Origin: Leifsonia sp. fls2-241-R2A-40a
Lineage (GTDB): Bacteria > Actinomycetota > Actinomycetes > Actinomycetales > Microbacteriaceae
NCBI RefSeq assembly: GCF_030209575.1
Contig: NZ_JARVRS010000001.1
Location: forward strand, 2,170,001-2,234,000
Direction: 5' to 3'
Length of the DNA: 64,000 nt
Below the pieces are notes generated by a model. That model was given only the letters and a program-made list of their open reading frames with translations. It searched no databases and was not told the DNA's origin. Below are positions 1-14,622 of this stretch, piece by piece. The position numbers were made by a program, and so were the translations under genes. Position 1 is the stretch's first letter, and every line of letters starts with the position of its first letter.

Positions 1-1
1 C

Positions 2-235
2 TACGAGCTCGCCCGGGCGCCGTTCGAGGAGAACTGGGTCAGCTTCGGCGAGAAGAACCAGGCGGCGTTCGACCTCGACCTCATGTACTTCGGCGACGAC
101 GGCAAGCCCGTCTTCATGCCGCCCGCCGACGAGCCCGTGCCGAGTGAGAACCATCCGTACAGCCCGTCGACCGTGCAGAAGCTCGAGCCCGAGCCTCCCG
201 CGCCGTACGACACGTTCGTCGACACCTTCGAGTAG
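2..235 (+). CDS. C-terminal end of a gene cut by the window edge; possible C-glycoside deglycosidase alpha subunit
   Basis: Only the last 77 codons are present; the frame is open from the left edge to a TAG stop. The visible tail is acidic and proline-rich (VFMPPADEPVPSENHPY) and ends FVDTFE, with no catalytic motif. Eight bases separate it from the DUF6379 gene, so the two are probably co-transcribed. In characterised C-glycoside deglycosidases (the CarBC and DfgAB types) the beta subunit is encoded beside a TIM-barrel alpha subunit. Position therefore suggests this is that alpha subunit. This is inference from context only; the missing upstream sequence would decide it. Confidence 0.45.
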   Translation, partial: YELARAPFEENWVSFGEKNQAAFDLDLMYFGDDGKPVFMPPADEPVPSENHPYSPSTVQKLEPEPPAPYDTFVDTFE

Positions 236-243
236 GAGCAGCC

Positions 244-660
244 ATGGCCACCCACAATTCGCTCTTCGCCGAGAAGGACGTGCGGCGCACCGCCGACGGC
301 ATCGCCGTCTCGGTGCAGCTGCCCTGGTACCGCAGCCTGTGGCTGTCCGCGGTCGACGACGTGGCGGCGACCGTCGACGGCGTGCCGATTCCGCGCGAGG
401 ACCTGCGCTTCGAGCTCGGTGGCAGGAGCTACCGCATCGAGGAGCTGCCCGAGCAGTCCGAGACGCTGTGGTTCGTCGCGGACCGCCCCGACGTCGTCAT
501 CCCGCTGGGCCACGCGCCGGAGGCGGGCGAGAAGCTGACCGTGGAGGTCGTGCTCACCATGCGCCTGCTGTACATGCAGATCATGCCGGGTGCCGACGGA
601 GGCCCCGGCCGTTACGTGACCAACCGCGTCCCGGTCGAGCGGGAGCTGGTGCTGGCGTGA
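244..660 (+). CDS. DUF6379 protein, C-glycoside deglycosidase beta-subunit-like
   Basis: A 138-residue protein matching the small beta subunit of C-glycoside deglycosidases (DUF6379). These enzymes cleave the C-C bond between a 3-keto-sugar and an aromatic aglycone after the sugar has been oxidised. Visible hallmarks are the N-terminal 'VSVQLPWYRSLWLSAVDDV' stretch, a VDG turn, and the strand TMRLLYMQIMPG near the C-terminus. The family is an all-beta domain that packs on a TIM-barrel alpha subunit. Start ATG is preceded by a GGAGCAGCC Shine-Dalgarno. The last bases overlap the next start as GTGA, so translation is probably coupled. Family assignment is by recognition; the substrate is not known. 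Confidence 0.8.
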   Translation: MATHNSLFAEKDVRRTADGIAVSVQLPWYRSLWLSAVDDVAATVDGVPIPREDLRFELGGRSYRIEELPEQSETLWFVADRPDVVIPLGHAPEAGEKLTVEVVLTMRLLYMQIMPGADGGPGRYVTNRVPVERELVLA

Positions 661-1853
661 CCGGTGGCGCCGCCGGCCGGCCGCTCCGCGTGGCGATGAT
701 CGGCTACGGGTTCATGGGCGCCGCCCACTCGGTGGGCTGGCGGCAGGCACCCGCCGTCTTCTCGCTCCCGCGTCCCGTCGAGCTGACCGTCGTCGTCGGC
801 CGCAATCCCGACGCCGTGGCCGAGGCCGCCGAGCACTGGGGATGGGCGGAGTCGGCGACCGACTGGCGCGCGGTGATCGCGCGCGACGACATCGACATCG
901 TGGACATCGTCACGCCCGGCGACTCGCACGCGGAGATCGCCATCGCCGCGCTCGATGCCGGCAAGCACGTGCTCTGCGAGAAGCCGCTCGCCAATACGGT
1001 CGCGGAGGCCGAGGAGATGCTGGCCGCCGCCACCCGCGCGGAGAAGCGCGGCGTCGTCGCCATGGTCGGCTTCACGTACCGTCGCGTCCCGGCCGTGACG
1101 CTGCTCCGCGATCTCATCGCGCAGGGAGCGGTGGGGACGGTGCAGCAGGTGCGCGCGGCCTACCGCCAGGACTGGCTGGTGGATCCGCTCCAGCCGCTCG
1201 CGTGGCGGCTCCAGAAGGAGCACGCCGGCTCCGGTGCTCTCGGCGACATCGGCGCGCACATCGTCGACATGACCCGGTTCGTCACCGGTCAGGACGTCGA
1301 AGCCGTCTCCGGCACGGTCGAGACGATCGTGCGCCGGCGTCCTCTGCTCGGCTCCGGCACCGGGCTGTCGGGCGTCGCCGCGGACGGCTTCGGCGAGGTG
1401 ACCGTCGACGACGCGGCGCTGTTCACCGGACGGCTCTCCGGCGGCGCGCTCGTCTCGTTCGAGGCGACCCGCTTCGCGACCGGGCGCAAGAACGCCCTGA
1501 CGCTGGAGGTGTCCGGTTCCGAAGGGGCGCTCGCCTTCGACCTGGAAGACCTGAACAGCCTCCAGTTCTACGACCGCACGGCCCCGGCGGACCGCCAGGG
1601 ATTCACGAAGATCCTGGTCACCGAGGCGCAGCATCCCTACGTCGCCGCCTGGTGGCCGCCGGGCCACACGCTCGGGTACGAGCACGCTTTCGTCCACCAG
1701 GCGTTCGACCTGGTGTCCGCGATCGCCGACGGATCGCAGCCGCACCCGACGTTCGCGGAAGGCCTCGCCGTCCAGCGCGTGCTCGGCGCGGTCGAGGAGA
1801 GCGCCGCCACCGGTTCCGCCTGGGTGCGCACGGGCTTCCGCGCGCACGTCTGA
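657..1853 (+). CDS. Gfo/Idh/MocA-family NAD(P)-dependent oxidoreductase
   Basis: A 398-residue dehydrogenase. The Rossmann glycine motif GYGFMG lies at residues 16-21, and the family's EKP motif at 108-110 (CEKPLANT). GDIGAHIVD with Asp197 and His201 gives the usual catalytic/sugar-binding pair of the C-terminal domain. The start is a GTG overlapping the stop of the DUF6379 gene (GTGA). A member of this family (DgpA in the puerarin system) oxidises the sugar of C-glucosides at C3, giving the 3-keto intermediate the deglycosidase needs. Given its neighbours, that is the most economical role here (inference). It could instead be a myo-inositol or other sugar dehydrogenase. Confidence 0.85.
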   Translation: MTGGAAGRPLRVAMIGYGFMGAAHSVGWRQAPAVFSLPRPVELTVVVGRNPDAVAEAAEHWGWAESATDWRAVIARDDIDIVDIVTPGDSHAEIAIAALDAGKHVLCEKPLANTVAEAEEMLAAATRAEKRGVVAMVGFTYRRVPAVTLLRDLIAQGAVGTVQQVRAAYRQDWLVDPLQPLAWRLQKEHAGSGALGDIGAHIVDMTRFVTGQDVEAVSGTVETIVRRRPLLGSGTGLSGVAADGFGEVTVDDAALFTGRLSGGALVSFEATRFATGRKNALTLEVSGSEGALAFDLEDLNSLQFYDRTAPADRQGFTKILVTEAQHPYVAAWWPPGHTLGYEHAFVHQAFDLVSAIADGSQPHPTFAEGLAVQRVLGAVEESAATGSAWVRTGFRAHV

Positions 1854-1883
1854 TCCGTCCGCATCCGCTCGAGGAGACAACGC

Positions 1884-2906
1884 ATGACCCGACCGATCAC
1901 ACTCTTCACCGGCCAGTGGGCCGACCTGCCCTTCGAGGAGGTGGCCAGGCTCGCCGGCGAGTGGGGCTACGACGGCCTCGAGATCGCCTGCTGGGGCGAC
2001 CACCTCGACGTCTCCCGCTGGGACGACGCGGACTATGTCCAGTCCCGCCGCGACATCCTGGAGCGCAACGGCCTGAAGGTGTGGACGATCTCCAACCACC
2101 TCGCCGGCCAGGCGGTGTGCGACGACCCGATCGATCAGCGCCATCGCGACATCCTCAACGACCGGGTCTGGGGAGACGGCGACCCCGAGGGCGTACGTAA
2201 GCGCGCCGCCGAAGAGCTAGAACTCACGGCGCGGATGGCCGCGGCCCTCGGCGTGCGGACGGTGACGGGCTTCACCGGATCGTCGATCTGGAAGGCCGTC
2301 GCGATGTTCCCGCCGGCGTCGGACGAGTGGATCGCCGCCGGGTACCAGGACTTCGCCGACCGTTTCCATCCCATCCTCGATGTGTTCGAGGAGGTCGGAG
2401 TGCGATTCGCGCTCGAAGTGCATCCGTCCGAGATCGCCTACGACTACTGGACAGCGAAGGCGACGCTGGAGGCGATCGGGCACCGGGAGAGCTTCGGGAT
2501 CAACTTCGACCCCTCGCACTTCATGTGGCAGCAGCTCGACCCGGTGGCGTTCGTGCTCGACTTCGCGGACCACATCTTCCACGTGCACGTGAAGGAGTCG
2601 ATCACGAACCTCGACGGGCGCAACGGCGTGCTCGGCTCCCACCTCCCCTGGGCGAACCCGCGGCGCGGCTGGACGTTCGTGTCGACCGCGCACGGCGAGG
2701 TGCCGTGGGAGCCGCTGTTCCGCGCGCTCAACGCGATCGGCTACACGGGCCCGACCTCGGTGGAGTGGGAGGACGCGGGGATGGACCGGCTCCAGGGCGC
2801 GCCCGAGGCCATCGCGTTCGTGCGGAAGCTCAACGCGATCACCCCGCCGGAGGCCGCGTTCGACGCCGCCTTCTCCACTAAGCAGGACGGGGACGTGGCC
2901 CGATGA
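1884..2906 (+). CDS. Sugar phosphate isomerase/epimerase-type TIM-barrel protein
   Basis: A 340-residue xylose-isomerase-like TIM barrel (AP endonuclease family 2 fold). Four likely metal ligands sit at the ends of barrel strands: Glu178 (LEVHPSE), Asp209 (NFDPSH), His233/His235 (FHVHVK) and Glu294 (SVEWED). The family includes sugar isomerases, epimerases and 3-keto-sugar processing enzymes. Here it follows the Gfo/Idh/MocA gene by 30 bp and overlaps the ThuA-like gene by four bases (ATGA), so it likely acts on the oxidised sugar. It differs from the beta-alpha fusion encoded at 3802-5114. GAGGAG precedes the ATG. Exact reaction unknown. Confidence 0.8.
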
Positions 2907-3772
2907 GCGACATCCTCGACGTCCTCATCCTCTCCGGGCACATGACCCGCGAGCACGACAACGAGAACCGCAGCTTCCGGCTCCACAACCAGTGGATCAC
3001 GACGCTGCTGGAGGACACCGGGCGGTTCCGGGTGCGCGTGGTCGAGGACCCGCGCGGCCTCGGGGCGGCGGTCATCGACAAGTACGACGTCGTGATCGTC
3101 GTCTTCGAGGGACGCGACGGCTACCACGAGAAGGCCGTCGGCTTCGGGCCGGAAACCGACGCGGCCCTCCTGAGGTTCGTCCACGACGACGGCAAGGGGA
3201 TCGTCTGGTTCCACGGGTCAGCGGCGCAGGAGGATGACTGGGGCTACCCCGACGACTACAACGTCATGCGCGGCTCCCGGCTGACGGTCGCGGGCGGTCT
3301 ACGGCCGCGGCCCTGGGGCGAGGCCCAGCTGGACACGGTCGAGCCGCGGCATCCCATCACCGAGGGCATCAGCGGGCGGTGGACGGTCACCGGCGACGAC
3401 ATCCTCACCGGTGTGGAGATCCTCGACGGCGCCCAGGTACTGCTCACGACGTTCGACGACCTCGAATCGTACGAGAGGGCGCCGATCTGGCCCATGTCGC
3501 ACTACCCGGTCGCCATCCCGGCGGAGGGCGTCGCTGCGCTCCCCGGGATGAACACGGATCAGCCCATCGCGTGGATCAACGAGTACGGCGCAGGCCGCTC
3601 GTTCACCATCACCGTCGGGCACGACATCGACACCTTCCGGCGCATCGAGTTCATCCGGATGTTCCCGCGCGGCGTCGAATGGGCCGCCACCGGCAGCGTC
3701 TCGCTGACCGGCCCCGACCGGCGGGGCGAGCGGCGCTTCCTTCCCTGGCCCTACTACAACCGCGAGGGCTGA
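2903..3772 (+). CDS. ThuA-domain protein (trehalose-utilisation type)
   Basis: A 289-residue ThuA-like protein with a class I glutamine-amidotransferase-like fold. It begins [18 protein letters not shown], followed by [19 protein letters not shown] and [18 protein letters not shown], where the family carries its conserved His. The C-terminal [20 protein letters not shown] is also typical. ThuA proteins work with Gfo/Idh/MocA dehydrogenases (ThuB) in 3-keto-disaccharide metabolism, which fits this operon. The start overlaps the TIM-barrel stop (ATGA). It is the last gene of the operon; a hairpin lies just downstream and the next gene is convergent. The specific reaction is not established. Confidence 0.8.
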
Positions 3773-3789
3773 CCGGCTCCGGAGTCCGC

Positions 3790-3829
3790 CTCCGCCTTCG
3801 CCTAGTCTTCCGACTCTGCGAAGGCGGAG
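3790..3829. terminator. Bidirectional hairpin between convergent operons
   Basis: CTCCGCCTTCG (3790-3800) pairs perfectly with CGAAGGCGGAG (3819-3829) around an 18-base loop. The right arm is inside the last codons of the reverse gene. It lies between the stops of two convergent genes and probably ends both transcripts. There is no U-tract. Confidence 0.55.
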
Positions 3830-5114
3830 CGCGCCAGCGCGAGGTGTTCGCGCGTCATGTCGGCCGGATCGTCATCCAGCCATCCGTGGCCGCCCCACTC
3901 ACTGCAGAGCGTCCCCGCGAAGTCCCACGCCCGCAGGATCGCGCCGAGCTCCCGCAGCGGCTGCGAGACGCGGTGACCGTCGTCATCCAGGTCCCAGAAC
4001 TTGAGATGGAAGGCCCCGACCAGCGGGAGGATGTCGCGCAGGACGCTGACCGGTGAGCGACCGAATCTCACGAGCAGATCCATGTAGAGCGCGTGGACTT
4101 CGGCGGGCACAGAGCCAGACCGGAGGTGGGTGACCACCGCTTCCAGCGTGTCCGGATCGAGCCACCCCTCCGACAGCCGCCGGAGCAGCTCCGCCGGGAG
4201 GCTCGGGCCCAGCGTGTCGAGGTAGCTGATCGGGAGAGCCGGCATGAACATGCTGGTGTCGACCAGGAGCCGGATCCGCGGGTCGTCCAGCGCGGCGATG
4301 TCGTCTATCGCGGCTGCGACGGCGGGGGCGTCCGGTGCCTGCTGGCCCTGCAGCTCTTCGTACAGCGTCAGCTCCAGGTCGTGCAGGACGGTTGCAACCG
4401 GCCCAGGAGCTGCGGTCCGGCCTGGCCGATCGGCAGTCTCACGCCCTCCGCACCGACGTCGTGTGCCGTCCGCAGCTGGGGGAGGAGGAACGCCAGCCGC
4501 TCGTCCTCGTCACGTCGCCGGGTCGGACCGAGCCAGTCGTCGAGGCTGGCTCCGACGATGCTGACGCGACCGCCGACCTCGGCCAGCCTGTCGCGCAGCG
4601 CGGAGGCCTCCGCCGTGGAGGTCTGCGGGAACGAACGCCACAGCTGCCCCGGCTCGAGCTCGATGACGGAGGAGACGCCCGAGCTCACGATGCCGACCAC
4701 GATGTCGGTGGCGGGATGTTCGGCCCGAATGACGTCCGGAGTCCAGTTGAAGGCGCTCGCCGCCAGCGTCCACCGGTCGGTGCGACCGGCATCCACTCGC
4801 CGTTCGGCGTGGAACGGGAGCGTCAGCGCGTCGGGTCCGGACTGGAGGTACGGGATGAGCAGTCGGAACGACACCGCGACCGTGTGCGCACCCGGCGCCA
4901 GGACGGTGTGGCCGCGGAGGGCGAGCCGATCCTGCACGAACCACCAGCCGTCTGCGGCGGGCGCGCTCACCGCGCAGTCCACCCCGTCGACCTGCACGCG
5001 CAGGTCGGACAGGCTCGAGAGGGGGAGGGAGCGGATCCAGGGCAGACTCACCCGCACGGTGAAACCGTCGGAGGTGGTGGTCAGAGCGTCATCGCCCAGG
5101 ATCGGCAGCGTCAT
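3802..5114 (-). pseudogene. Fused beta-alpha C-glycoside deglycosidase-like protein, interrupted by a one-base frameshift
   Basis: Two open frames, 5114-4368 and 4251-3802 with its in-frame upstream extension, form one protein of about 437 residues if one base is restored at 4383-4389. The frame then reads RLQPVLHDLELTLYEELQG instead of RLQPSCTTWS-stop. Residues 1 to about 125 resemble the DUF6379 beta subunit (GFTVRVSLPWIRSLPLSSL, VDGVDC). The rest is a TIM barrel with the four-ligand set Glu (LYEELQG), Asp (LLVDTSM), His (AFHLKFWD) and Glu (CSEWGG). Beta and alpha functions, usually separate polypeptides, are thus joined. ATG 5114 overlaps the ROK stop (ATGA). It may be a real pseudogene or a sequencing error; all metal ligands are intact, which favours recent loss or error. 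Confidence 0.75.
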
Positions 5115-6388
5115 GCCGGGGTCTTGATCCCCTCGATCGTCGGCCGCCCGTCGGCGAACCAGCGCGGGAACGTCGCCTCGAAGAGTTCCTCGATCGCGAG
5201 CTCCGCGCCGCCTCGCAGCGGCTCGCGCTCATCGCCGATCGAACGGACGATCGACAGGTCCCTGGTGGCCAGCGGCAGCGACAGCTCGTACACCCGCTGC
5301 CGGACCTCTGCGAGGAAGATCTCCCCGGCCGAGGACACCGCTCCGCCGATCACGATGACCGCTGGGTTGAACATGTTGACCAGTGCCGCGATGGACTCGC
5401 CGATCATGCGCGCGGAGCGCTGGACGAGCGAGATGGCCAGAGCGTCGCCGTCCATGGCGGCGATGGACACGGCCTCGGGGGTGACCGGCTCCCCGCGCCC
5501 GGTCAGGGCGGCGAGGGCGCCCCCGGCTCCGTCGGCCAGCGCACGCTCGGCGTCCCGCACGATCGCCCAGCCGGAGGCCTCCGCCTCCAGGCAGCCGACC
5601 TTGCCGCAGCGGCAGGGAGCGGTCGAGTCGCGCACGCGCACGTGCCCGATGTCACCCGCCGCGCCGTTCGCGCCCCGATGGATGCGGCCGTGCGAGACGA
5701 GACCGGCGCCGATTCCGCTGCCGACCTTGCAGTAGATCAGGTCGACGTTGTCGTCGCGGCGGTGGCTGCGCTCGGTGAGAGCGAGGAGGTTGACGTCGTT
5801 GTCCACCCACACCGGCGCGTCGAATCGCTGCTCGAAGAGGCGGCGCACGTCGAAACCGTTCCAGCCAGGCATGATGGGCGGCGCGACCGGCGACCCGGTC
5901 TCGAAGTCGACGGGGCCCGGAACGCCGACCGCGACCGCCCAGACCGGGCGGTCGTCGCCGTCGATGAGGGTGTCGATCATCCCGAGCGCCGTCTCGATGG
6001 TCTCGGCCGGGCCCCGGCCGATGTCCCAGGCGCGGTGGTCCTCGGCGAAGACCTCGCCATCGAGGGTGGCGAGACCGACGCGGATGTGGAGGGCGCCGAG
6101 CGCGCAGACGACGATCGTCGCCTGGTCGGCGCGGAAGCGGAGCGTCCGTGGTGCGCGCCCGCCGGAGGAGGGGCCGTAGTCGCCGTCCTCCAGGAAGCCC
6201 ATCTCGATCGCAGCCTCGACGCGCTGCGTGACGACGCCGCGCCCCAGCCCCGTGAGCCGGCCGATCTCCGGCCGAGTGCCCGCTTCGCCGGTGCGGACGA
6301 GGTTGACGACACGGAGCAGGCTCATGACCTCGTCGGTCTGAGCGCCGAAGCGAAGTGCGGAGTCCCTGGCCATGCTTGATTCTGACAC
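5111..6388 (-). CDS. ROK-family transcriptional regulator (NagC/XylR type)
   Basis: About 425 residues: an N-terminal winged helix (RPEIGRLTGLGRGVVTQRVEAA) followed by a sugar-kinase-like ROK domain. The ROK zinc motif is clear (CRCGKVGCLEAEASG), as is the sugar-binding GAAGDIGHVRV stretch, so a sugar ligand is likely. The start is GTG at 6388; an in-frame ATG at 6373 (MARDSAL) is an alternative. It is transcribed divergently from the aromatic-degradation operon and with the fused deglycosidase gene, so it probably represses one or both until a glycoside-derived sugar appears (inference). Confidence 0.9.
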   Translation of the reverse strand: MSESSMARDSALRFGAQTDEVMSLLRVVNLVRTGEAGTRPEIGRLTGLGRGVVTQRVEAAIEMGFLEDGDYGPSSGGRAPRTLRFRADQATIVVCALGALHIRVGLATLDGEVFAEDHRAWDIGRGPAETIETALGMIDTLIDGDDRPVWAVAVGVPGPVDFETGSPVAPPIMPGWNGFDVRRLFEQRFDAPVWVDNDVNLLALTERSHRRDDNVDLIYCKVGSGIGAGLVSHGRIHRGANGAAGDIGHVRVRDSTAPCRCGKVGCLEAEASGWAIVRDAERALADGAGGALAALTGRGEPVTPEAVSIAAMDGDALAISLVQRSARMIGESIAALVNMFNPAVIVIGGAVSSAGEIFLAEVRQRVYELSLPLATRDLSIVRSIGDEREPLRGGAELAIEELFEATFPRWFADGRPTIEGIKTPA

Positions 6389-6598
6389 AACTCCGTCTGC
6401 ATCCGGCGGAATCGCCGCGCACTTGCGCGTGGGCGAGCGGAGCTTGCGCCGTACTACGACGGAAGCCGGTCCGGCGTGGACCTAGGAAATCAGTCTCATT
6501 GATCCCCGGCATAGCCGATACGCGGTTCCCTGATGCGGTGGCCCCCTCGATAGTGGAGACCGGGCAATCACATTCCGCCCGTCTGGAAAGGATCAAGG
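6389..6598. promoter_or_regulatory. Divergent promoter region between ROK regulator and aromatic-degradation operon
   Basis: 210 bp without a gene. A weak sigma-70-like pair TTCCCT (6526-6531), 17 bp spacer, GATAGT (6549-6554) could serve the forward operon. GGAAAGGATCAAGG directly before ATG 6599 is a good ribosome-binding site. A small CGTACTACG palindrome is present, but no strong operator was recognised. Confidence 0.4.
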
Positions 6599-7618
6599 AT
6601 GATCAAGCTTCTCTCCCACCTGTCGTATGTGGAGATCACGTCCCCCGATGTCGAGGCATCTGTGAAGTTCTACGAGGAACAGGTCGGACTCACCGTCGTC
6701 GACCGCATCGATGGATCGGTCTACCTGCGCTGCTGGGGCGACTACTACGCGTACTCCGTCGTCGTCACGCCCGGAACCGAGCCGACCCTCGTGACCATGG
6801 CCTGGCGGACCTCCAGCGCCGAAGCGCTGGAGGAGGCCGCCAAGCGCATCGAGGCCGCGGGCGTCGAGGGCGAATGGCTCGACGACGTGCCCGCCATCGG
6901 CCGCGCGTACCGCTTCACCGGTCCGTGGGGACACTCGATGACCCTGCACTGGGACGTCACGCGTCACCAGGCTCCCGGCCACGTCGCCTCCATCTACCCG
7001 GACCGCCCGGAGAAGCGGAGCAAGGTCGCCGGCGCCCCGCGCCAGCTCGACCACGTCACGATCGCGACCAGCGACGTCGACGCCTTCGCCGCCTGGTACA
7101 ACGACGTGCTCGGGTTCCGGATCATGGCGCGGACCGTGCTCGACGAGGCGCCGATCTCGATCTTCTCGGTGCTGACCACCAACGAGAAGTCGCACGACCT
7201 CGGCGTCGTGCTCGACGGCTCGACCCGTGCCGGCCGCGTCAACCACTACGCCTTCTGGGTCGACACCTACGAGGAGCTCCTCATCGCGGCCGACACCCTG
7301 ATGGAGAACGGCGTGCCGATCGAGTACGGTCCCTCCATCCACGGGATCGGCGAGCAGACGTTCCTCTATTACCGCGAGCCCTCCACACTGCGGATCGAGC
7401 TCAACACCGGCGGCTACCGCAACTACGTGCCCGACTGGCAGCCCAACACCTGGAAGCCGTCGCTCGGCTCGAGCAACTTCTACCGCAACGGCGCCATGCC
7501 GATGTCGATGACCGAGTCGTTCCCCGCAGCCGACGGACCGAGCGCCACCGAGGAGGGCGTGCCTGACGAGATCAAGGAAGCGCTGCTCAACCCGTACGCC
7601 GTGCAGGGTCGCGGCTGA
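6599..7618 (+). CDS. Type I extradiol (catechol 2,3-dioxygenase-like) dioxygenase
   Basis: A 339-residue two-domain VOC protein. The C-terminal domain carries the iron ligands expected of ring-cleaving extradiol dioxygenases: His152 (LDHVTIAT), His216 (VNHYAFWVD) and Glu267 (LRIELNTGG). The spacing matches XylE-type enzymes closely. The N-terminal domain lacks this triad, as usual. It should open a catechol-type ring next to the two hydroxyls. It is the first gene of a six-gene operon with a flavin monooxygenase and an FAH-family hydrolase, the standard context for meta-cleavage. The substrate cannot be told from sequence; a polyphenol aglycone is suggested by the adjacent deglycosidases. Confidence 0.88.
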   Translation: MIKLLSHLSYVEITSPDVEASVKFYEEQVGLTVVDRIDGSVYLRCWGDYYAYSVVVTPGTEPTLVTMAWRTSSAEALEEAAKRIEAAGVEGEWLDDVPAIGRAYRFTGPWGHSMTLHWDVTRHQAPGHVASIYPDRPEKRSKVAGAPRQLDHVTIATSDVDAFAAWYNDVLGFRIMARTVLDEAPISIFSVLTTNEKSHDLGVVLDGSTRAGRVNHYAFWVDTYEELLIAADTLMENGVPIEYGPSIHGIGEQTFLYYREPSTLRIELNTGGYRNYVPDWQPNTWKPSLGSSNFYRNGAMPMSMTESFPAADGPSATEEGVPDEIKEALLNPYAVQGRG

Positions 7619-7620
7619 TC

Positions 7621-8619
7621 ATGGCCGCACCGAGCGAGGATCCCGGCGACCTGGACCGTCGGGATCCGGAGGCGGAGATCGGGGCGAGGGCCGAGGCGTA
7701 CCGCAACTGGGGACGCTGGGGCGACGACGACGTGCTGGGCACGCTCAACCTCATCGATGAGGCGAAGCGCACCGAGGCGGCCGCCCTGGTCCGTGAGGGG
7801 CTGACGATCTCCCTGGCGCAGTCGTTCGACATGAACGGGCCGCAGAAGGGCTGGCGCCGGCGCACCAACCCGGTGCACACCATGCTCGACACCGGGACGG
7901 ACGCCGAGCGCGGCAATCAGGGCTTCCCGCACGGGCTCGGCGGCGCCGACGACGTGATCGCGATGCCGCTCCAGTGCTCGACGCAGTGGGACGGCCTCGG
8001 CCACATCTTCGACCACGGCTCCGCCTGGAACGGGCGGCGCGCGGGAGAGGTGGTGACGAGCGAGGGCGACCTGGTCACCGGGATCGAGCACGCGGCCTCC
8101 GTCATCGTGTCGCGCGGGGTGCTGCTCGACGTCGGACGGCACCTGCAGCCGGAGACCGGTGAGCTGCCCGACGGCTACGCGATCACCGCCGCCGACCTGC
8201 GGTCGTGCGCGGAGGCGCAGGGCCCCACCAGCTCGGTGCGCGCGGGTGACATCGTCCTCGTGCGCACCGGCCAGCTCGCCCGCGCCCGGCGTGACGGCTG
8301 GGGCGAGTACGCGGGCGGTCCGGCGCCCGGCCTCTCCCTGACCACCGCCGGCTGGCTGCACGACACCGGCATCGCTGCGATCGCGACCGATACCTGGGGT
8401 TTCGAGGTGCGCCCGAACGAGTTCGACGTGCCGGCGTTCCAGCCCCTGCATCAGGTCGCGATCCCGAACCTGGGCCTCACCATCGGCGAGATGTGGGACC
8501 TGGAGCAGCTGGCGGTCGAATGCGCCAGGCTCGGCCGATACGATTTCCTCCTCTCGGCCCCGCCGCTGCCGATCACCGCAGCGGTCGGGTCGCCGATCAA
8601 CCCCATCGCGCTGCTCTAG
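7621..8619 (+). CDS. Cyclase-family (kynurenine formamidase fold) hydrolase
   Basis: A 332-residue protein of the cyclase superfamily (metal-dependent hydrolases such as KynB and isatin hydrolase). The usual metal motif HxGTHxDxxxH is altered here to QCSTQWDGLGHIFDHG: the Asp and the later His are kept but the first His positions are not. A second His (PLHQVAIPNLGL) is present downstream. Similar proteins occur in aromatic and lactone degradation clusters. It begins two bases after the dioxygenase stop, so translation is probably coupled. Likely role: hydrolysis of a lactone or amide ring-cleavage product (inference). Confidence 0.8.
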   Translation: MAAPSEDPGDLDRRDPEAEIGARAEAYRNWGRWGDDDVLGTLNLIDEAKRTEAAALVREGLTISLAQSFDMNGPQKGWRRRTNPVHTMLDTGTDAERGNQGFPHGLGGADDVIAMPLQCSTQWDGLGHIFDHGSAWNGRRAGEVVTSEGDLVTGIEHAASVIVSRGVLLDVGRHLQPETGELPDGYAITAADLRSCAEAQGPTSSVRAGDIVLVRTGQLARARRDGWGEYAGGPAPGLSLTTAGWLHDTGIAAIATDTWGFEVRPNEFDVPAFQPLHQVAIPNLGLTIGEMWDLEQLAVECARLGRYDFLLSAPPLPITAAVGSPINPIALL

Positions 8620-8669
8620 CGGACACCATCCGCTGGGGCTGAGCATCCCGAGAACAGAGAGGTTCTTGC

Positions 8670-9803
8670 ATGACCGCCGTACAGAAGGTCGCGATCGCCG
8701 GAAGCGGCGTCGCCGGTCTGGCCGCCGCCATCCAGCTCGCCAAGGCGGGCGTCGAGGTCGACGTCTTCGAATCGAAGGCCGAACTGAGCGCCCTGGGCTC
8801 GGGCATCACCCTGCAAGGCAACGCGCTTCGGGTCTTCGACGCGCTGGGCGTCTGGGACGACGTGCGGGAGGCGGGCTACTTCTTCGAAGGACTGACGCTC
8901 CGGGCTCCCGGACCGGATGCGCCGGTGGTGGCCGAACTGCCCGAGGTGAAGACGGGTGGCCCGGACTTCCCCGCGACCGGCGGCATGTACCGGCCCGACC
9001 TCGCGCGCATCCTCCTCCGGCATGCGGAGGCGGCGGGTGCGACGGTGCGCTTCGGGTCGAAGGTGACCGGGGTGTCGCAGACGGACGGCGGCGTCTCACT
9101 CGACGTGGACGGTGGACCGGCCGGCACCTACGACCTCCTGATCGGAGCGGACGGTCTCAACTCCGTCGTGCGGGACCTGATCGGCATCGAGACGAAGCCG
9201 CAGCCGACCGGGATGGGCATCTGGCGCGCGTTCGTCTCGCGCCCGGCATCGGTCGAGCGCAGCGAGCTCTACTACGGCGGCCCGGTGTACATCGCGGGCT
9301 ACACGCCGACCGGCGAGGACACGATGTACGCCTTCCTGGTCGAGCCGTCCCGCGAGCGCGTCGAGATCACCGACGAGCAGGCGGTCGACATCATGCTGGA
9401 GGAGTCGGCCGCGTACGGCGGCCCGTGGGAGGACATCCGCGCCGACCTGCGGGACGGCGCGCACGTGAACTACACCTGGTTCACCCAGCACCTGGTCCCG
9501 GCCCCGTGGAACCGCGGGCGCGCGGTGGTCATCGGCGACGCCGCGCACAGCTGCCCGCCCACGATCGCTCAGGGCGCCGCGCAGGCGCTGGAGGACGCAC
9601 TCGTCCTCACCGAGTTGCTGGTCGAGAGGGACGTCGTGGACGACTCCTTGTGGGACGAGTTCCACGGCCGTCGACTGCCGCGGGCGCAGGCCGTCGTCGA
9701 GGCGTCCGTGCAGCTCGGTCAGTGGCAGATCGACCACGACCGGGAGGCCGACGCCGCCGGGCTCATCTTCGGCATCTCGCACCGGATGGCGGAGCCCGCA
9801 TGA
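8670..9803 (+). CDS. FAD-dependent aromatic monooxygenase
   Basis: A 377-residue class A flavoprotein hydroxylase (PHBH/salicylate hydroxylase type). FAD-binding GSGVAG is at residues 11-16 with the acidic end of strand 2 (DVFES). The DG motif GADGLNSVVRD is at about 159-169, and the GD motif GDAAHSCPPTIAQGAAQALEDA starts at 289. These enzymes use NAD(P)H and O2 to hydroxylate a phenolic or heteroaromatic ring, here presumably making the substrate for the extradiol dioxygenase. AGAGAGG precedes the ATG; the stop overlaps the next ATG (ATGA). Confidence 0.9.
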   Translation: MTAVQKVAIAGSGVAGLAAAIQLAKAGVEVDVFESKAELSALGSGITLQGNALRVFDALGVWDDVREAGYFFEGLTLRAPGPDAPVVAELPEVKTGGPDFPATGGMYRPDLARILLRHAEAAGATVRFGSKVTGVSQTDGGVSLDVDGGPAGTYDLLIGADGLNSVVRDLIGIETKPQPTGMGIWRAFVSRPASVERSELYYGGPVYIAGYTPTGEDTMYAFLVEPSRERVEITDEQAVDIMLEESAAYGGPWEDIRADLRDGAHVNYTWFTQHLVPAPWNRGRAVVIGDAAHSCPPTIAQGAAQALEDALVLTELLVERDVVDDSLWDEFHGRRLPRAQAVVEASVQLGQWQIDHDREADAAGLIFGISHRMAEPA

Positions 9804-10792
9804 GGATCGCCCGCTGGACCACCGCGGATTCCGGCCTGCGCGAGGGCTTCGTGATCGGGGATCGCGTGGTCCCGTTCCCCGACGGACTCACGGTCGCCGA
9901 CGTCCTGGCCCGCGGGCTGGCCGAAGCGCCGGCCCTCCTCGCCCGGGTCCAGGACGAGCCGGGCGTGCCGCTGTCGGAGGTGCGCCTCCTGGCTCCCCTC
10001 GCCCCCGCATCCATCCGTGACTTCGTCGCCTTCGAGGAGCACGTCGAAGGGGTGAGCGCGTCGGTCGACGGAAAGAGCGAGGTGGTGCCCGAGTGGTACC
10101 AGGCGCCGACCTTCTACTTCACCAACCCGCACACGGTGCTCGGGCCGGACGAGCAGCTGCGGCCCCCCGCCAGTGCGCGCCTCGACTTCGAGCTGGAGGT
10201 CGCCGCCGTGATCGGCGCGGCGCCCGGCACCGACGGCGCGAACCTGAGCCCCGAGGACGCGGCCGGCGTGATCTTCGGCTACACGATCATGAACGACTGG
10301 TCGGCCCGCGACCTGCAGTCCCGCGAGATGAAGGTGCGCCTCGGCCCGGCCAAGGGCAAGGACTTCGGAACGGCACTCGGGCCGTGGATCGTCACCGCCG
10401 ACGAACTGGACCCGTACCTCGACGACGACGGCTTCCTCGCCCTTGAGGCGGAGGTCTCCGTCAACGGCGAGCGGGTGGGCCACGATCTCCTGTCGAACAT
10501 GGGCTGGCCGTTCCCCGAACTCGTCGCCTACGCGTCCCGCAACTCGCGGGTCGTGCCCGGTGACGTGCTCGGCTCCGGGACCACCGGCAACGGGGGCTGC
10601 CTGGCAGAGCTGTGGGGACGACGCGGCGAGTTGGACCCCCGACCACTCGCCGAGGGCGACGCGGTGCGGATGGTCGTCGAGGGGATCGGCGAGCTGGTGG
10701 GTCCTGTCGGGGCGAGCGTGGCCCTCCCGGAGCCGGCCGCGGCCCGGCAGCGCACGCGTGCGCGCAGCCGAGAGGCGCAGGCCGCACTGTGA
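9800..10792 (+). CDS. Fumarylacetoacetate hydrolase (FAH)-family protein
   Basis: A 330-residue FAH-fold enzyme. Metal-binding acids Glu131 and Glu133 (DFELEVAAVIG) and Asp166 (MNDWSARDLQSRE) are in place, with His81 (EEHVEG) as a candidate base. The KGKDFGTALGPW and GSGTTGNGG segments are typical. Members hydrolyse acylpyruvates or hydrate 2-oxo-4-pentenoates after ring fission, which fits its place in the operon. It overlaps the monooxygenase (ATGA) and the SDR (GTGA). The last 25 residues are an Ala/Arg-rich tail unlike the rest. Confidence 0.88.
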   Translation: MRIARWTTADSGLREGFVIGDRVVPFPDGLTVADVLARGLAEAPALLARVQDEPGVPLSEVRLLAPLAPASIRDFVAFEEHVEGVSASVDGKSEVVPEWYQAPTFYFTNPHTVLGPDEQLRPPASARLDFELEVAAVIGAAPGTDGANLSPEDAAGVIFGYTIMNDWSARDLQSREMKVRLGPAKGKDFGTALGPWIVTADELDPYLDDDGFLALEAEVSVNGERVGHDLLSNMGWPFPELVAYASRNSRVVPGDVLGSGTTGNGGCLAELWGRRGELDPRPLAEGDAVRMVVEGIGELVGPVGASVALPEPAAARQRTRARSREAQAAL

Positions 10793-11574
10793 GTCCCATT
10801 GCGAGCCTCGGTGCCGGCCTGGAGGGCGCGACCGTCGTCGTGACCGGCGCCGCTCGCGGCCAGGGCGCCGCCGAGGCGCGCCTGCTCGCCACGTGCGGTG
10901 CGCAGGTCGTCGCGACCGATGCGACCGCCCCGGACGAGCCCCTCGGCGACCGCATCGCCTTCCGGCTGCTCGACGTCACCGACGAGGACGCGTGGGCGGA
11001 ACTCGCGGCGGACCTCGCGACGACGCTGGCCGGAACGCCCCTGCGCGGCCTCGTCAACAACGCCGGCGTCACCCACCGCGCCGGCCTCGCCCAGACCGAG
11101 CGCGCCGACTGGGATCGTGTGCTCGCCGTCAACCTGACCGGCCCCATGCTCGGGATGCGCGCGCTCGCTCCGCTCATGGCCGAGGGCTCCTCGATCGTGA
11201 ACGTCGGCTCCGTTGCGGGACTGACCGGTCACTACACCGCCGCCTACACCGCGTCGAAGTGGGGCCTGCGCGGTCTCTCGCGTGTGGCCGCCACCGAGTT
11301 CGGCCCCCGCGGCATCCGCGTGAACACCATCCACCCCGGCTTCATCGAGACCGGCATGACCGCGAACGCGCCGACGGCGATGCGGGAGGCGCAGCTCGAA
11401 CTGACGCCGCTCCAGCGGCTCGGTGAGCCCTCCGATGTGGCCGGTCTCGCCGTGTTCCTGCTGTCCGATGCGTCTGCGTACCTGTCGGGCGCCGACATCC
11501 CCGTCGACGGAGGGTTCACCTCGTCCGCCGGCGCCAAGTACCTCGCGGACCGCATCGCCGCCGCGACGACGTAA
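10789..11574 (+). CDS. Short-chain dehydrogenase/reductase
   Basis: A classical SDR of 261 residues. Cofactor motif TGAARGQG (19-26), NNAG (90-93) and the catalytic Ser141, Tyr153 and Lys157 (YTASK) are all present. The acidic residue after strand 2 (VVATDAT) favours NAD(H). The C-terminal SGADIPVDGGF is the standard ending. The start is GTG 10789, overlapping the FAH stop by four bases. It likely oxidises or reduces an alcohol/ketone intermediate of the same pathway. Substrate unknown. Confidence 0.9.
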   Translation: MSPIASLGAGLEGATVVVTGAARGQGAAEARLLATCGAQVVATDATAPDEPLGDRIAFRLLDVTDEDAWAELAADLATTLAGTPLRGLVNNAGVTHRAGLAQTERADWDRVLAVNLTGPMLGMRALAPLMAEGSSIVNVGSVAGLTGHYTAAYTASKWGLRGLSRVAATEFGPRGIRVNTIHPGFIETGMTANAPTAMREAQLELTPLQRLGEPSDVAGLAVFLLSDASAYLSGADIPVDGGFTSSAGAKYLADRIAAATT

Positions 11575-11596
11575 GCAACGAGAAGGAGCCCGTTCC

Positions 11597-12781
11597 GTGT
11601 TCATGTACTTCCCCACCAACTACGTGTGGAGCCTCGCCGTGGTCGCGACACTCAACAACGGCGGCTACATCGACGAGGTCGACCGGGCGTGCAAGCCGGT
11701 GCTGCTCGCGTCGCAGAACGGCGACGACGCCGGGACCGCAGAGCTGTACGCCTCGTGGGCGGCCGTCGCCGACCGTCTGGTCGCCAAGGCGGCTGCCGAC
11801 GAGGCCGCCGGCCGCCGGATCGGTGCGGGGGAGACGTACTACCGCGCGTCGCTCTACACGTCCCAGTCGGAGCGGCTGCAGTCGCCGCGGTGGGAGGGTC
11901 GCAACGCGGCGTACCAGAAGTCCATCGACCTGCTGCTCAAGCACGTCGAACTGAGCCGCATCCCGCTCACCCGGGTCGAGGTCCCGTACGAGGGTTCGTC
12001 GCTGCCCGGGTACTTCTACCGCGCACCGGGCGAGGGGCCGCATCCCGTGATCATCCAGTGGAACGGCCTCGATTCGACGAAGGAGATGATGTACTACTCC
12101 GGCTTCCCGAAGATGCTGGCCGAGCGCGGCATCTCCACGCTGATGATCGACACGCCCGGTTCAGGCGAGGCGCTCCGGCTGCGCGGCCTCACCGCGCGCC
12201 ACGACACCGAGGTGTGGGCAGCGGCCATCATCGACTGGATCGAGGAGCACGCCGCCGAATTGGATGCGGATCCCGAGCAGCTCGGGATCGTGGGCTGGTC
12301 GCTGGGCGGCTACTACGCTCCTCGCGCGGCGGCCTTCGAGAAGCGGCTGAAGCTGGCGGTCGCCTGGGGCGCCAACCACGACTGGGCCGCGGTCCAGGAG
12401 GCGCGTCGCAACCGCGAGGGAGAGAACCCGGTGCCGCACTACTGGGACCACGTGTTCTGGGTGTGGGGCGTGGACTCGATGGAGGCGTTCATCGAGAAGA
12501 CCGCGGGGATGCACCTGAACGGCGTCGCGGAGAAGATCACGGTGCCGCTGCTCATCACGCACGGCGCCGGCGACCGGCAGATCCCCGTGAAGTACGCGCA
12601 CGAGACCTACGACCAGGCGGTGAACAGCCCGCGTCGCGAGCTGCGCATCTTCGACGACCCGGAGGGCGGCACCGAGCACATCTCGATCGACAACATGCCG
12701 TACGTCGCCGGCATCATCGCCGACTGGGTGGCCGAGACCTTCGCGGCCGAGAGCGAGGGCGCGGGCGCGGGCGCGGAGTAG
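11597..12781 (+). CDS. Alpha/beta hydrolase with helical N-terminal cap (2,6-dihydroxypseudooxynicotine hydrolase-like)
   Basis: A 394-residue alpha/beta hydrolase whose first 120 or so residues are a helical cap. The nucleophile elbow is GWSLGG (Ser235). Asp326 (THGAGDRQIP) and His361 (GGTEHIS) complete the triad. The architecture resembles 2,6-dihydroxypseudooxynicotine hydrolase, which splits a C-C bond beside a hydroxylated ring, and FrsA-like esterases. It could cleave an acyl-aromatic bond (inference). Start GTG 11597 is chosen because AAGGAG lies eight bases upstream; ATG 11603 is possible. Last gene of the forward operon; a short GAG-rich repetitive tail ends the protein. Confidence 0.8.
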   Translation: MFMYFPTNYVWSLAVVATLNNGGYIDEVDRACKPVLLASQNGDDAGTAELYASWAAVADRLVAKAAADEAAGRRIGAGETYYRASLYTSQSERLQSPRWEGRNAAYQKSIDLLLKHVELSRIPLTRVEVPYEGSSLPGYFYRAPGEGPHPVIIQWNGLDSTKEMMYYSGFPKMLAERGISTLMIDTPGSGEALRLRGLTARHDTEVWAAAIIDWIEEHAAELDADPEQLGIVGWSLGGYYAPRAAAFEKRLKLAVAWGANHDWAAVQEARRNREGENPVPHYWDHVFWVWGVDSMEAFIEKTAGMHLNGVAEKITVPLLITHGAGDRQIPVKYAHETYDQAVNSPRRELRIFDDPEGGTEHISIDNMPYVAGIIADWVAETFAAESEGAGAGAE

Positions 12782-12793
12782 GGCGCCGGTGCG

Positions 12794-12822
12794 CCCTCGC
12801 CCCGGCGGTTCAGCGGCGAGGG
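12794..12822. terminator. Hairpin between convergent alpha/beta hydrolase and GH3 genes
   Basis: CCCTCGCC (12794-12801) pairs with GGCGAGGG (12815-12822) over a 13-base loop in the 28-bp convergent gap. The right arm enters the GH3 coding end. A modest bidirectional terminator candidate without a U-tract. Confidence 0.4.
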
Positions 12823-14567
12823 TGGCCCGCGCGGAAGAGCGGGTCCGGAGTGTCGTCGGGCGCGTCTGGAGCGCTCGCGGCCACCGAGGCCATGTCCCGC
12901 GGCAGGTCGAAGGGAAGCGCTCCCTGCGCGTCCGCCCGGCCGGCGAGCACGGCGAGGAGCACGTCGTCCGCGGCGCCGAACTCGCCGACGAGCGCGGCCA
13001 CCTCTCCGGCGAACGGGGTGAGGATCGCGGGGCGGTTCAGCGTGACTACGAGGACGACCGGCAGGCGGCGAGCGAGCGCGAGCACCCGGTCGATCTCGTC
13101 CGCTCCGAATTCGAGGGACCCCTGCTGCATCCCGGACTCCAGGAAGAAGTGGTCGCGGTACTCGAACGGGGATGCGACCCGGACGACCGCGAAGTCGGCC
13201 GCCTCGGCATCCGCCGCCCGCCAGCCCGGCGGGAGTGCGGCCTCCGCCACTCCGACCAGGTGCACGCGCGCGTCACCACGGACAGGAAGGAACGGCGCGG
13301 CTGTCGTGCCGTTCGCGCGGTTCGTCAGGATGGTGACGGCTCGCGCCTGGGCCTCTCGGCCGAGTGCGACGTCGTCGGGCCGGGGGAGGCGGTCGGCACC
13401 GGGCGCATCCTCGCCGCCGAGGTCGCCGTCGACCAGCTCCAACTCGACCATCAGCCGGACGAGACGAAGTGCCGATTCCGCCAGACGGCCCGGGTCGAGC
13501 CGACCTGAATCCACCGCCTCCCGGATCAGCCGCGTGTCGCTCTCACCGCCGAGCTGGTCGACCCCGGCTTCGAACAGTCGGCATAGCCGTTCCAACGGGG
13601 ACAGCTCCTCGACCCCCCACGCCCGCGCCGGGAACGGCTTCCCGGCGACCTCGATGTCGGTGACGAGCCCGAAATCCGTGAGCACGACGCCGTCGAAGCC
13701 CAGCTCGTCGCGCAGGAGCCCGGTGATGATCCGCCGGTTGAACGAGAACCCGACCGGTTCGACCGGCTCGCCGTCGATCACCAAGCCCACGGGCATCCCG
13801 TAGTACGGCATGATCGCCGCGGCCCCGGCGGCGATGGCCGCACGGAACGGCGCGAGGTGGTCGTCGAACCGTCCCGCCGGGTAGACCTGTTCGCGGCCGT
13901 AGGGGAAGTGCGGATCCTCGCCGTCGAGCTGCGGGCCGCCGCCCGGGAAGTGCTTCACGGTGGCGGCGACGCTCGTTCCATCCAGCCGTGGTCCTTGGAG
14001 CCCTTCGAGGAAGGCGACCACCAGCCGCGACGTCGTCTCGGGGTCCGACCCGAAGCTCTGCGCCTGGCGGGCCCATCGAGGTTCGGTGGCGAGGTCGATC
14101 TGCGGATGCAGGGCCATCCGGATTCCCATCGCCCGGTAGTCGCGGCGGACGGTCTCCGCATAGCGGCGCACCAGGTCTGCATCCCCGATCGCGCCGAGTC
14201 CCAGGTTCTCCGGCCACTGCGAGAGCCCGGCCGCCGTATGGGCGGCGCCGTCGTTCTGCAGGAACGCGTGCCGCGGATCGGTGGAGAAGACGGCGGGGAG
14301 CCTCGATCCGTTCGATCGCGAGATCCCCTGGAGCTCGCGCAGGAATGCGGCGGTGCGCTCCGGGGAGGGGATGCGGCCCAGGCAGAAGAAGCGGAGGCCG
14401 TGGTCGACGATCAGCTCCCGGAAGGTCGGGCCGCCGAATCCGGCGGACGCATCCGGGTCCGGGTTGTCCCCCACCATGATCATCGGATGCAGCAGCAGGC
14501 CGATCCGCTCATCCAGCGTCATCCCCTCGACGATCTCCCGGGCCCGGCTGGTGCTGGCGGTGGTCAC
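12810..14567 (-). CDS. Glycoside hydrolase family 3 (beta-glucosidase/beta-xylosidase type)
   Basis: A cytoplasmic GH3 enzyme of about 585 residues. Substrate-binding Lys-His appears in ATVKHFPGGG, and the catalytic Asp lies in GVVLTDFGLVTD, where the family has SDW or TDW. A shorter C-terminal domain ends without a fibronectin module, and there is no signal peptide. Start GTG 14567 is preferred because GAGGGAGA lies six bases upstream; an ATG at 14600 lacks a ribosome-binding site. A 21-bp palindrome sits 35 bp upstream. It probably removes O-linked sugars from glycosides imported for the adjacent catabolic operons (inference). Confidence 0.88.
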   Translation of the reverse strand: MTTASTSRAREIVEGMTLDERIGLLLHPMIMVGDNPDPDASAGFGGPTFRELIVDHGLRFFCLGRIPSPERTAAFLRELQGISRSNGSRLPAVFSTDPRHAFLQNDGAAHTAAGLSQWPENLGLGAIGDADLVRRYAETVRRDYRAMGIRMALHPQIDLATEPRWARQAQSFGSDPETTSRLVVAFLEGLQGPRLDGTSVAATVKHFPGGGPQLDGEDPHFPYGREQVYPAGRFDDHLAPFRAAIAAGAAAIMPYYGMPVGLVIDGEPVEPVGFSFNRRIITGLLRDELGFDGVVLTDFGLVTDIEVAGKPFPARAWGVEELSPLERLCRLFEAGVDQLGGESDTRLIREAVDSGRLDPGRLAESALRLVRLMVELELVDGDLGGEDAPGADRLPRPDDVALGREAQARAVTILTNRANGTTAAPFLPVRGDARVHLVGVAEAALPPGWRAADAEAADFAVVRVASPFEYRDHFFLESGMQQGSLEFGADEIDRVLALARRLPVVLVVTLNRPAILTPFAGEVAALVGEFGAADDVLLAVLAGRADAQGALPFDLPRDMASVAASAPDAPDDTPDPLFRAGHPRR

Positions 14568-14601
14568 GGATGGTCTCCCTCGACTCGCGGACGGGTCCAT
14601 C

Positions 14602-14622
14602 TTATGTTGAAAACCGACATAA
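14602..14622 (-). promoter_or_regulatory. Palindromic operator candidate upstream of GH3
   Basis: TTATGTTG, five bases, CGACATAA: an eight-base inverted repeat with one mismatch, strikingly AT-rich for this region. It lies between the GH3 start and the DUF2277 gene. Size and symmetry suit a LacI- or ROK-type repressor site. The binding protein is not identified. Confidence 0.5.

Follow-up and report, generated by a model that had tools for sequence, protein, structure and literature searches.

Linkage of C-glycoside deglycosidase genes and a ring-cleavage operon in a catabolic island of Leifsonia sp. fls2-241-R2A-40a

The genome of Leifsonia sp. fls2-241-R2A-40a carries a catabolic island in which genes for C-glycoside deglycosidases (CGD) are joined to an operon for the hydroxylation and cleavage of aromatic rings. 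The window analysed here, a stretch of 64,000 nucleotides (G000:C1:2170001-2234000), covers only the right-hand end of this island, which spans genome positions 2138407-2182781 (about 45 kb); negative window positions denote sequence upstream of the window. Judging from its gene complement, the island is likely to be a catabolon that would take up aryl C-glycosides and pass them into central metabolism; the most probable substrates are C-glycosyl flavonoids such as vitexin, isovitexin, orientin or isoorientin. That the two modules are joined is well supported, and we infer the substrate and the order of steps. EDO (extradiol dioxygenase), CYC (cyclase family), FMO (FAD monooxygenase), FAH, DHPH, GMC1/2, TIMa-d and CGDb1-4 are working labels of this analysis; CGDB denotes the deglycosidase beta subunit family (DUF6379, PF19906).

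Association of the two modules in related and distant bacteria

In a sample of 199 genomes of the family, an orthologue of EDO was defined by at least 64% identity; in six of the 27 genomes with an EDO match, the only matches are distant dioxygenases (32-38%), and excluding these genomes leaves 21. CGDB was found in 15 of the 199 genomes, and all 15 are among these 21. Counted by genus, CGDB is present in 10 of the 14 genera with EDO versus none of the 71 without it. GMC2, which encodes a predicted C-glycoside 3-oxidase, has orthologues (at least 60% identity) in exactly the same 15 genomes and in no other of the 199. CGDB and EDO lie 1.9-16.5 kb apart in 12 of the 15. Co-occurrence (15/15) and linkage (12/15) lead us to reject a chance neighbourhood of two unrelated operons; the initial annotation, which had joined the deglycosidase genes to the ring-cleavage operon, is borne out in relatives both by these counts and by the more distant junctions described below. 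The missing co-occurrence that would have refuted it is thus not what the relatives show. In a set of 79 named loci of close relatives, taken from the best 80 of 211 relatives (identity 79-98%; stretches of at most ±10 kb, some contigs being cut short), EDO is accompanied by FMO in 73 loci, FAH in 70 and CYC in 67; 53 loci have a C-glycoside gene.

Comparable modules are also clustered in many relatives and in members of two other bacterial phyla. A 21-kb stretch of Agromyces terreus (L105) has the order GMC2-CGDb1-CGDa1-...-EDO-FAH-CYC-FMO-FAH-IclR-PobA-PcaHGB, and an Arthrobacter plasmid holds most of the island, with no pob or pca gene within the 41 kb examined. In a genome from another family of the same phylum (G373), PobA-Pca-DHPH(28%)-FAH-FMO-EDO(47%)-CGD-importer occupy a single stretch at identities of 28-64%. 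A plasmid of Deinococcus aetherius carries consecutively an importer, TIM barrel, DUF6379, GMC, EDO (65%), cyclase, FAH, DHPH (52%) and two FAD oxidoreductases, and a plasmid of Croceicoccus marinus has two TIM-DUF6379 pairs around GH3, Gfo, TIM, GMC, MFS, VOC, DHPH (48%), cupin and FAH genes.

Several observations weigh against so close an association. The Fisher p values, 4e-18 by genome and 3e-10 by genus, treat genomes as independent and leave kinship uncorrected. EDO orthologues occur without CGDB in 6 of the 21 family genomes, and CGDB and EDO are 788 kb apart in one genome (G143), 85 kb apart in another (G073) and on different contigs in a third (G188); in G073 and G188 the CGD block adjoins FAH-FMO-CYC. 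Among 396 genomes of the phylum, EDO (E at most 1e-90) was found in three and CGDB in five (three over the cut-off), the two together only in the window genome and G373; G407 has a CGDB over the cut-off without EDO at 1e-90, G288 and G515 have weak CGDB matches without EDO, and G164 has EDO without CGDB. The Croceicoccus stretch contains no FAD monooxygenase, and its VOC gene is just 21% like EDO. Finally, the 79 loci overlap with the 199-genome sample by at least nine genomes, so that the two sets are not independent (genome G125 and locus L108 are one record).

The regulator of the ring-cleavage operon shifts with its context. Among the 79 loci, a ROK gene accompanies EDO in 45 with C-glycoside genes and in three without, the latter being contigs of 4-11 kb; a LysR gene does so in 17 loci without C-glycoside genes and in none with them, and 14 loci have neither regulator at the cut-offs applied (eight with and six without C-glycoside genes). 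These counts bear on a rival reading in which the ring-cleavage operon is a general one, for another phenol or flavonoid aglycone, that settled near deglycosidase genes with which it shares no substrate. The six EDO genomes without CGDB favour such a reading, as do the 17 LysR loci with no C-glycoside gene in the stretch examined; the regulator shift argues against it, together with the fact that every CGDB-bearing genome among the 199 also has an EDO orthologue and with the comparable junctions formed from diverged genes in Deinococcus and Croceicoccus. We consider it improbable that the operons are unrelated in substrate. The six genomes indicate that the ring-cleavage operon also serves other inputs.

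The initial annotation had joined the two modules with one regulator. ROK, LysR, IclR and TetR genes are all present in the island, and a search with 9-mer words found no clear operator common to the ROK-EDO promoter and the other island promoters, only scattered matches, so a single regulator is not supported. The ROK gene lies upstream of EDO on the opposite strand in all 48 ROK loci; it directly adjoins EDO (217-228 bp) in eight, and 1.9-2.2 kb separate the two in the other 40. In locus L124, this interval (8087-9894) contains an open reading frame (ORF) that looks Gfo-like by eye; the interval gene is absent in the window.

Extent and layout of the island

The island starts about 32 kb upstream of the window (genome position ~2138407) with pob/pca genes, and its upstream part also holds two GMC genes of the C-glycoside-3-oxidase type, four CGD alpha genes (one fused to a beta) and a sugar importer. 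A whole catabolon had been proposed for the window; the modules are indeed joined there, but the window cuts the island, and the C3-oxidases that would begin the route and the pob/pca genes that would complete it lie in the 32 kb upstream. A 17-kb same-strand operon (genome 2156791-2173772, window -13209 to 3772, gaps of at most 68 nt) crosses the window boundary. Its order is ABC sugar importer, GH43, a GH106-like gene (weak match, E 2.8e-7), SnoaL, TIM barrel, GMC2, CGDB, two TIM barrels and SnoaL_4, followed by the window genes. Before it lie LysR (- strand), an alpha/beta-hydrolase, a fused CGD beta-alpha gene, a CGD alpha, CGDB, GMC1, MFS (named from its sequence), TetR, an FAD monooxygenase and IclR-pobA-pcaHGB-pcaDC-pcaIJF.

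The gene families named for the window by the initial annotation are all present, and the four strand blocks are real: block 1 (+), which is the end of the 17-kb operon and includes the first CGDB gene of the window near that end, block 2 (-), block 3 (+; 6599-12781, gaps of at most 50 nt), which is the ring-cleavage operon of EDO, cyclase, FAD monooxygenase, FAH, SDR and alpha/beta-hydrolase genes, and block 4 (-). The features are as follows (window coordinates, strand, description).

1..235 (genome 2169450-2170235), +, SnoaL_4 gene, 3' part (PF13577, E 1.3e-16), member of the 17-kb operon
244..660, +, CGDB/DUF6379, C-glycoside deglycosidase beta subunit (PF19906, E 8.6e-15)
651..1853 (start 651 or 696), +, Gfo/Idh/MocA dehydrogenase (PF22725, 1e-29; PF01408, 4.6e-27)
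1884..2906, +, xylose-isomerase-like TIM barrel (PF01261, 9.6e-41), putative isomerase or hydratase
2903..3772, +, ThuA-family protein (PF06283, 5.2e-26)
3802..5114, -, split fused beta-alpha CGD-like gene, in two frames (ORFs 4368-5114 and 3802-4251)
5111..6388, -, ROK-family regulator (PF00480, 8.9e-56), divergent from the ring-cleavage operon
6389..6598, no strand, ROK-EDO intergenic region, with conserved blocks in five close relatives
6599..7618, +, EDO, VOC-type extradiol dioxygenase (H152, H216 and E267 invariant in 8 aligned sequences)
7621..8619, +, CYC, cyclase family (PF04199, 4.9e-21)
8670..9803, +, FMO, FAD monooxygenase, probable ring hydroxylase (PF01494, 5.2e-37)
9800..10792, +, FAH-family hydrolase (PF01557, 7.2e-48)
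10762..11574 (start 10762 or 10840), +, SDR dehydrogenase (PF13561, 3.7e-58)
11597..12781, +, DHPH, alpha/beta-hydrolase related to 2,6-dihydroxypseudooxynicotine hydrolase (DHPONH; 2jbw, E 6.7e-25)
12810..14600, -, GH3 glycosidase, accessory (PF00933, 3.4e-38)

The GH3 glycosidase, listed by the initial annotation as part of the island, is present at 12810-14600 and is not a regular member: at 45% identity or more it was found in only 3 of the 79 loci (within the same ±10 kb stretches), and we rejected it as a core gene. Beside the island, on the minus strand (15187-16302), lies a 371-residue ORF that looks repetitive by eye.

Genes for sugar removal

GMC2 is close in sequence to characterised C-glycoside 3-oxidases (CarA/CGOx, clade IV) and is predicted to oxidise C-glycosides at C3. 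Its matches to the solved structures 7qf8 and 7dve have E values of 3.5e-249 and 2.4e-234, respectively, and 7DVE is named as MtCarA, a characterised 3-oxidase (PMC10807413). The GMC2 orthologue of Microbacterium trichothecenolyticum DSM 8608 (73% identical to GMC2) aligns to 7dve over 505 residues with no mismatch, and this MtCarA gene lies on the same contig as the EDO orthologue, 13 kb away. The genome of M. trichothecenolyticum carries nearly the island described here, with closely similar content between GMC1 and LysR and no pob or pca gene within the 60 kb examined. Clade IV motifs are given as (G/A)AHW and LDASPVPL(A/G)(D/E)DD (PMC10807413); GMC2 has GAHW at 123 and LDASPIPLADD at 356 (Ile for Val), and GMC1 has GAHW and lacks the LDASPVPL-type loop. 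In one family genome (G028:C1:3959249-3960780), the GMC2 orthologue is in two overlapping frames and is possibly frameshifted.

Four PF19906 loci over the cut-off were found in the genome: two adjoin an alpha gene, one is fused, and one has one gene between it and its likely alpha. The last, CGDB at 244-660, is the probable partner, by gene order, of the AgCGD2-alpha-like gene one gene upstream (genome 2168397-2169434), a TIM barrel that matches the AgCGD2 alpha chain (7dnm_A) with E 1.7e-190. The fused beta-alpha gene (CGDba) matches AgCGD2 alpha at 2.2e-128 and AgCGD2 beta at 5.8e-27, a third CGD alpha matches at 2.8e-54, and CGDa1 is nearest to 8qrz (2.1e-97) and 7bvs (3.1e-57). In AgCGD2 numbering, the metal ligands of the CGD alpha subunit are E147, D179, H269, K271 and E305, and H149 and E307 are the catalytic His and Glu (PMC8563793). 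With this numbering mapped onto the island alphas by an assumed offset of 2, all seven residues are kept in TIMc, TIMb and the alpha part of CGDba, and CGDa1 has Q at 269, one metal ligand being changed. The very close AgCGD2 alpha match and the MtCarA orthologue among the neighbours strengthen the earlier suggestion that the substrate is possibly C-glycosylated.

A further CGD-like gene beside ROK had been taken for a second, fused deglycosidase. ORFs 4368-5114 and 3802-4251, two frames in the window, form a single open frame in 41 of the 43 relatives that have both parts; the CGDB match of the former is 6.8e-5 only, under the Pfam cut-off. In the 41 intact relatives His149 is replaced by Gln throughout and Glu307 by Gly in 40, with a gap in one, and the metal ligands are retained; AgCGD2-like alpha orthologues keep both His149 and Glu307 (10/10). 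Given the frameshift in the window and the replaced catalytic His and Glu in relatives, we rejected this gene as a working second deglycosidase. The family is probably not a standard deglycosidase. All 43 loci with both parts also hold ROK, and the ROK-linked fused protein is a possible sensor or altered enzyme.

The Gfo/Idh/MocA dehydrogenase had been called DgpA-like. The family assignment stands and the label fits only loosely: among solved structures, 4h3v, an unnamed oxidoreductase, gives the best match (1.7e-154), versus 2.3e-24 and 4.3e-23 for the DgpA-named chains 9m3d and 7xr9. A role in 3-keto-sugar redox is predicted for this dehydrogenase. In Agrobacterium, there is preliminary evidence for a hydratase and a Gfo reductase acting on the released keto-sugar (PMC10628242), and the TIM-barrel and Gfo genes of the island could act in the same manner.

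The sugar side also admits a reading in which the main substrates are O-glycosides of flavonoids or phenylpropanoids and C-deglycosylation is incidental. Glycosidase genes are present in or beside the island (GH43, GH3 and the weak GH106-like match), and C3-oxidised O-glycosides shed their sugar non-enzymatically (PMC12724307). On such substrates, however, CGD complexes would be unneeded, yet four alphas are kept, three with all tested residues and one with a single ligand changed, and GH3 is rarely conserved with the island. O-glycosides as the main substrates seem unlikely to us, and aryl C-glycosides remain the favoured candidates in what follows.

The ring-cleavage operon and the proposed route

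In the route that we propose for C-glycosyl flavonoids, GH43 and the GH106-like enzyme would trim outer sugars, and the ABC importer would take up the glycoside. The GMC-type 3-oxidases, as their close homology to MtCarA suggests, would oxidise the C-linked glucose at C3, and the CGD alpha/beta complexes, including the natural beta-alpha fusion, would break the sugar-aryl C-C bond by metal-assisted elimination, a step predicted from homology and from the kept active-site residues. The Gfo dehydrogenase, TIM-barrel, ThuA and SnoaL proteins may return the resulting 3-keto-glucal to sugar metabolism. In the ROK-linked operon, whose enzyme families are evident and whose substrate is predicted, FMO would hydroxylate the freed A ring, EDO would open it (H152, H216 and E267 are presumably its 2-His-1-Glu triad), and CYC, FAH and DHPH would hydrolyse the products. 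DHPH, or a second FAH in relatives, would cut the C-C bond beside the ketone and free the B ring as 4-hydroxybenzoate or protocatechuate; from the gene content, PobA and the Pca enzymes would lead this product to the tricarboxylic acid (TCA) cycle.

The hydrolase assigned to B-ring release is not constant. DHPH is present in 14 of the 79 loci, and 58 have a second FAH-like gene close to EDO; no locus has both, and seven have neither. In the Arthrobacter plasmid, this second gene encodes an FAA_hydrolase that is 31% identical to the FAH of the window. DHPH and the second FAH, unrelated hydrolases that were not observed together in any of these loci, may perform the same step. DHPONH itself cuts a C-C bond (PMC11069340).

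The beta-ketoadipate set (pobA, pcaGHBDCIJF) is the same complete-looking one as in the known pathway, here near flavonoid-type genes: Pfam families and order give pcaH, G, B, D/C, I, J and F at genome 2139257-2146691, with pcaI assigned by position alone and pobA named from FAD_binding_3 plus order. PcaH is encoded in 20 of the 21 EDO genomes versus 29 of the 178 others. A second FAD monooxygenase gene (FMOx) lies upstream of the window, at genome 2146789-2148015, with relatives in loci L106 and L108; in L108, where no FMO was detected, the relative stands directly before EDO and is perhaps an alternative A-ring hydroxylase.

The nearest known analogues of the operon are two A-ring cleavage clusters, Fde for naringenin in Herbaspirillum and Ifc for isoflavones in Variovorax. 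FdeE is an FAD monooxygenase that acts with the Rieske protein FdeD on the naringenin A ring (PMC8552027), and fde products go to protocatechuate and pca (PMC11303751); IfcA hydroxylates isoflavones, and Ifc is described with IfcA, IfcB and a DHPONH-like hydrolase (PMC11069340). At the level of enzyme families, the operon resembles both clusters in having an FAD monooxygenase and a glyoxalase-type dioxygenase, and Ifc in having a DHPONH-like hydrolase. It differs from them in having ROK instead of LysR beside it in the window (relatives with LysR are counted above) and C-deglycosylation genes attached. Clusters in Fde order (LysR, VOC, Rieske, FAD enzyme, DHPH-type hydrolase, FAH) were found on plasmids of Diaphorobacter, Massilia and Azospirillum; their Fde-type label is our reading of content and order. 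The FMO of the window is 35-38% identical to the enzymes in the FdeE position of these three clusters, and DHPH is 49-51% identical to its counterparts. The operon seems to work like Fde, and we do not file it as an Fde member.

Some points tell against the flavonoid route as drawn. Neither a Rieske gene (FdeD) nor a cupin gene is found among the six operon genes. EDO shows no clear kinship with the VOC genes of the Fde-order clusters: in two of them no match was reported, and in the third the identity is 27% across 37% of the query. Of the 20 genomes with both PcaH and EDO, only 9 have them within 40 kb of each other. Lastly, disrupting the DHPONH-like gene of the Variovorax Ifc cluster left daidzein degradation unaffected (PMC11069340), because of which the proposed C-C cleavage by DHPH, and with it B-ring release, is weakened.

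Xanthones and carminic acid have no 4-hydroxyphenyl B ring, a point that matters for another rival, a C-glycoside catabolon for a different aglycone: an isoflavone (puerarin), a xanthone (mangiferin), a dihydrochalcone (nothofagin, aspalathin) or an anthraquinone (carminic acid). The PobA linkage suggests a 4-hydroxyphenyl B ring, and the presence of four CGD alpha genes points to a range of C6 and C8 substrates and not to a single one. In favour of this rival, the isoflavone hydroxylation by IfcA (PMC11069340) is a precedent, and characterised CGD relatives are broad: MiCGD prefers carminic acid, and AgCGD1 and MtCGD act on C6-glycosylated flavonoids and a xanthone glycoside, AgCGD2 having accepted a single C8-glycoside only, compound 2 (PMC8563793). 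We take this possibility seriously but lean against it, and C-glycosyl flavonoids remain the favoured candidates.

A fuller version of the flavonoid reading can be offered tentatively, although as a whole we hold it to be less likely than not. The island could be a self-contained aerobic catabolon from C-glycosyl flavones to the TCA cycle, in which a DHPONH-type (or, in relatives, FAH-type) hydrolase would split an aroyl diketone and free 4-hydroxybenzoate or protocatechuate for PobA/Pca in one step, bypassing coumarate. The A-ring module would be portable and change its master, with LysR for aglycone sensing where the module stands alone and ROK, where the module is attached to C-deglycosylation genes, for sugar-type sensing; the fused CGD-like protein, with Gln in place of the catalytic base, would be a relative that binds a ligand or acts in another way. 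Falsifiable predictions follow from the ROK/LysR switch and from the mutual exclusion of DHPH and the second FAH.

We know of no aerobic ring cleavage in the gut Dgp/Dfg clusters. These clusters share with the island the CGD alpha/beta subunits and a 3-keto intermediate (PMC8563793, PMC12724307), and they differ in that the gut route begins with NAD-dependent DgpA (PMC12724307). Closer are the soil systems CarABC (Microbacterium 5-2b), MtCarA/MtCGD, AgCGD1/2 and PurABC (Paenarthrobacter No. 37), which have in common with the island an FAD-dependent 3-oxidase and a metal-dependent alpha/beta CGD; the island differs in its attached ring-cleavage genes and in one CGD being a beta-alpha fusion. 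In the papers considered here, work on the soil systems ends at the aglycone: 'dioxygenase' is absent from the main text of PMC8563793 and 'gene cluster' from that of PMC12724307, and the Discussion of PMC8563793 states that the remaining enzymes encoded in these soil deglycosidase clusters have yet to be studied. Among openly licensed PubMed Central papers, which give no proof of absence, we found none that, to judge by titles and the opening of abstracts, joins C-deglycosylation with extradiol cleavage and none on DUF6379. C-glycosides resist ordinary glycosidases; the island offers candidates for the subsequent steps and shows that they travel together. As the gene of a solved enzyme, MtCarA, lies inside such an island, what becomes of C-glycosyl flavonoids once the sugar is gone can be tested in a culture-collection isolate, M. 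trichothecenolyticum DSM 8608.

In a protein search from a Rhizobium relative, none of the matches listed (120 of 722) came from a host named for Fde or Ifc. Plasmid pAtK84c of Rhizobium rhizogenes K84 (L080) carries a cluster with EDO (45%), DHPH (48%), FMO (34%) and several SDR genes.

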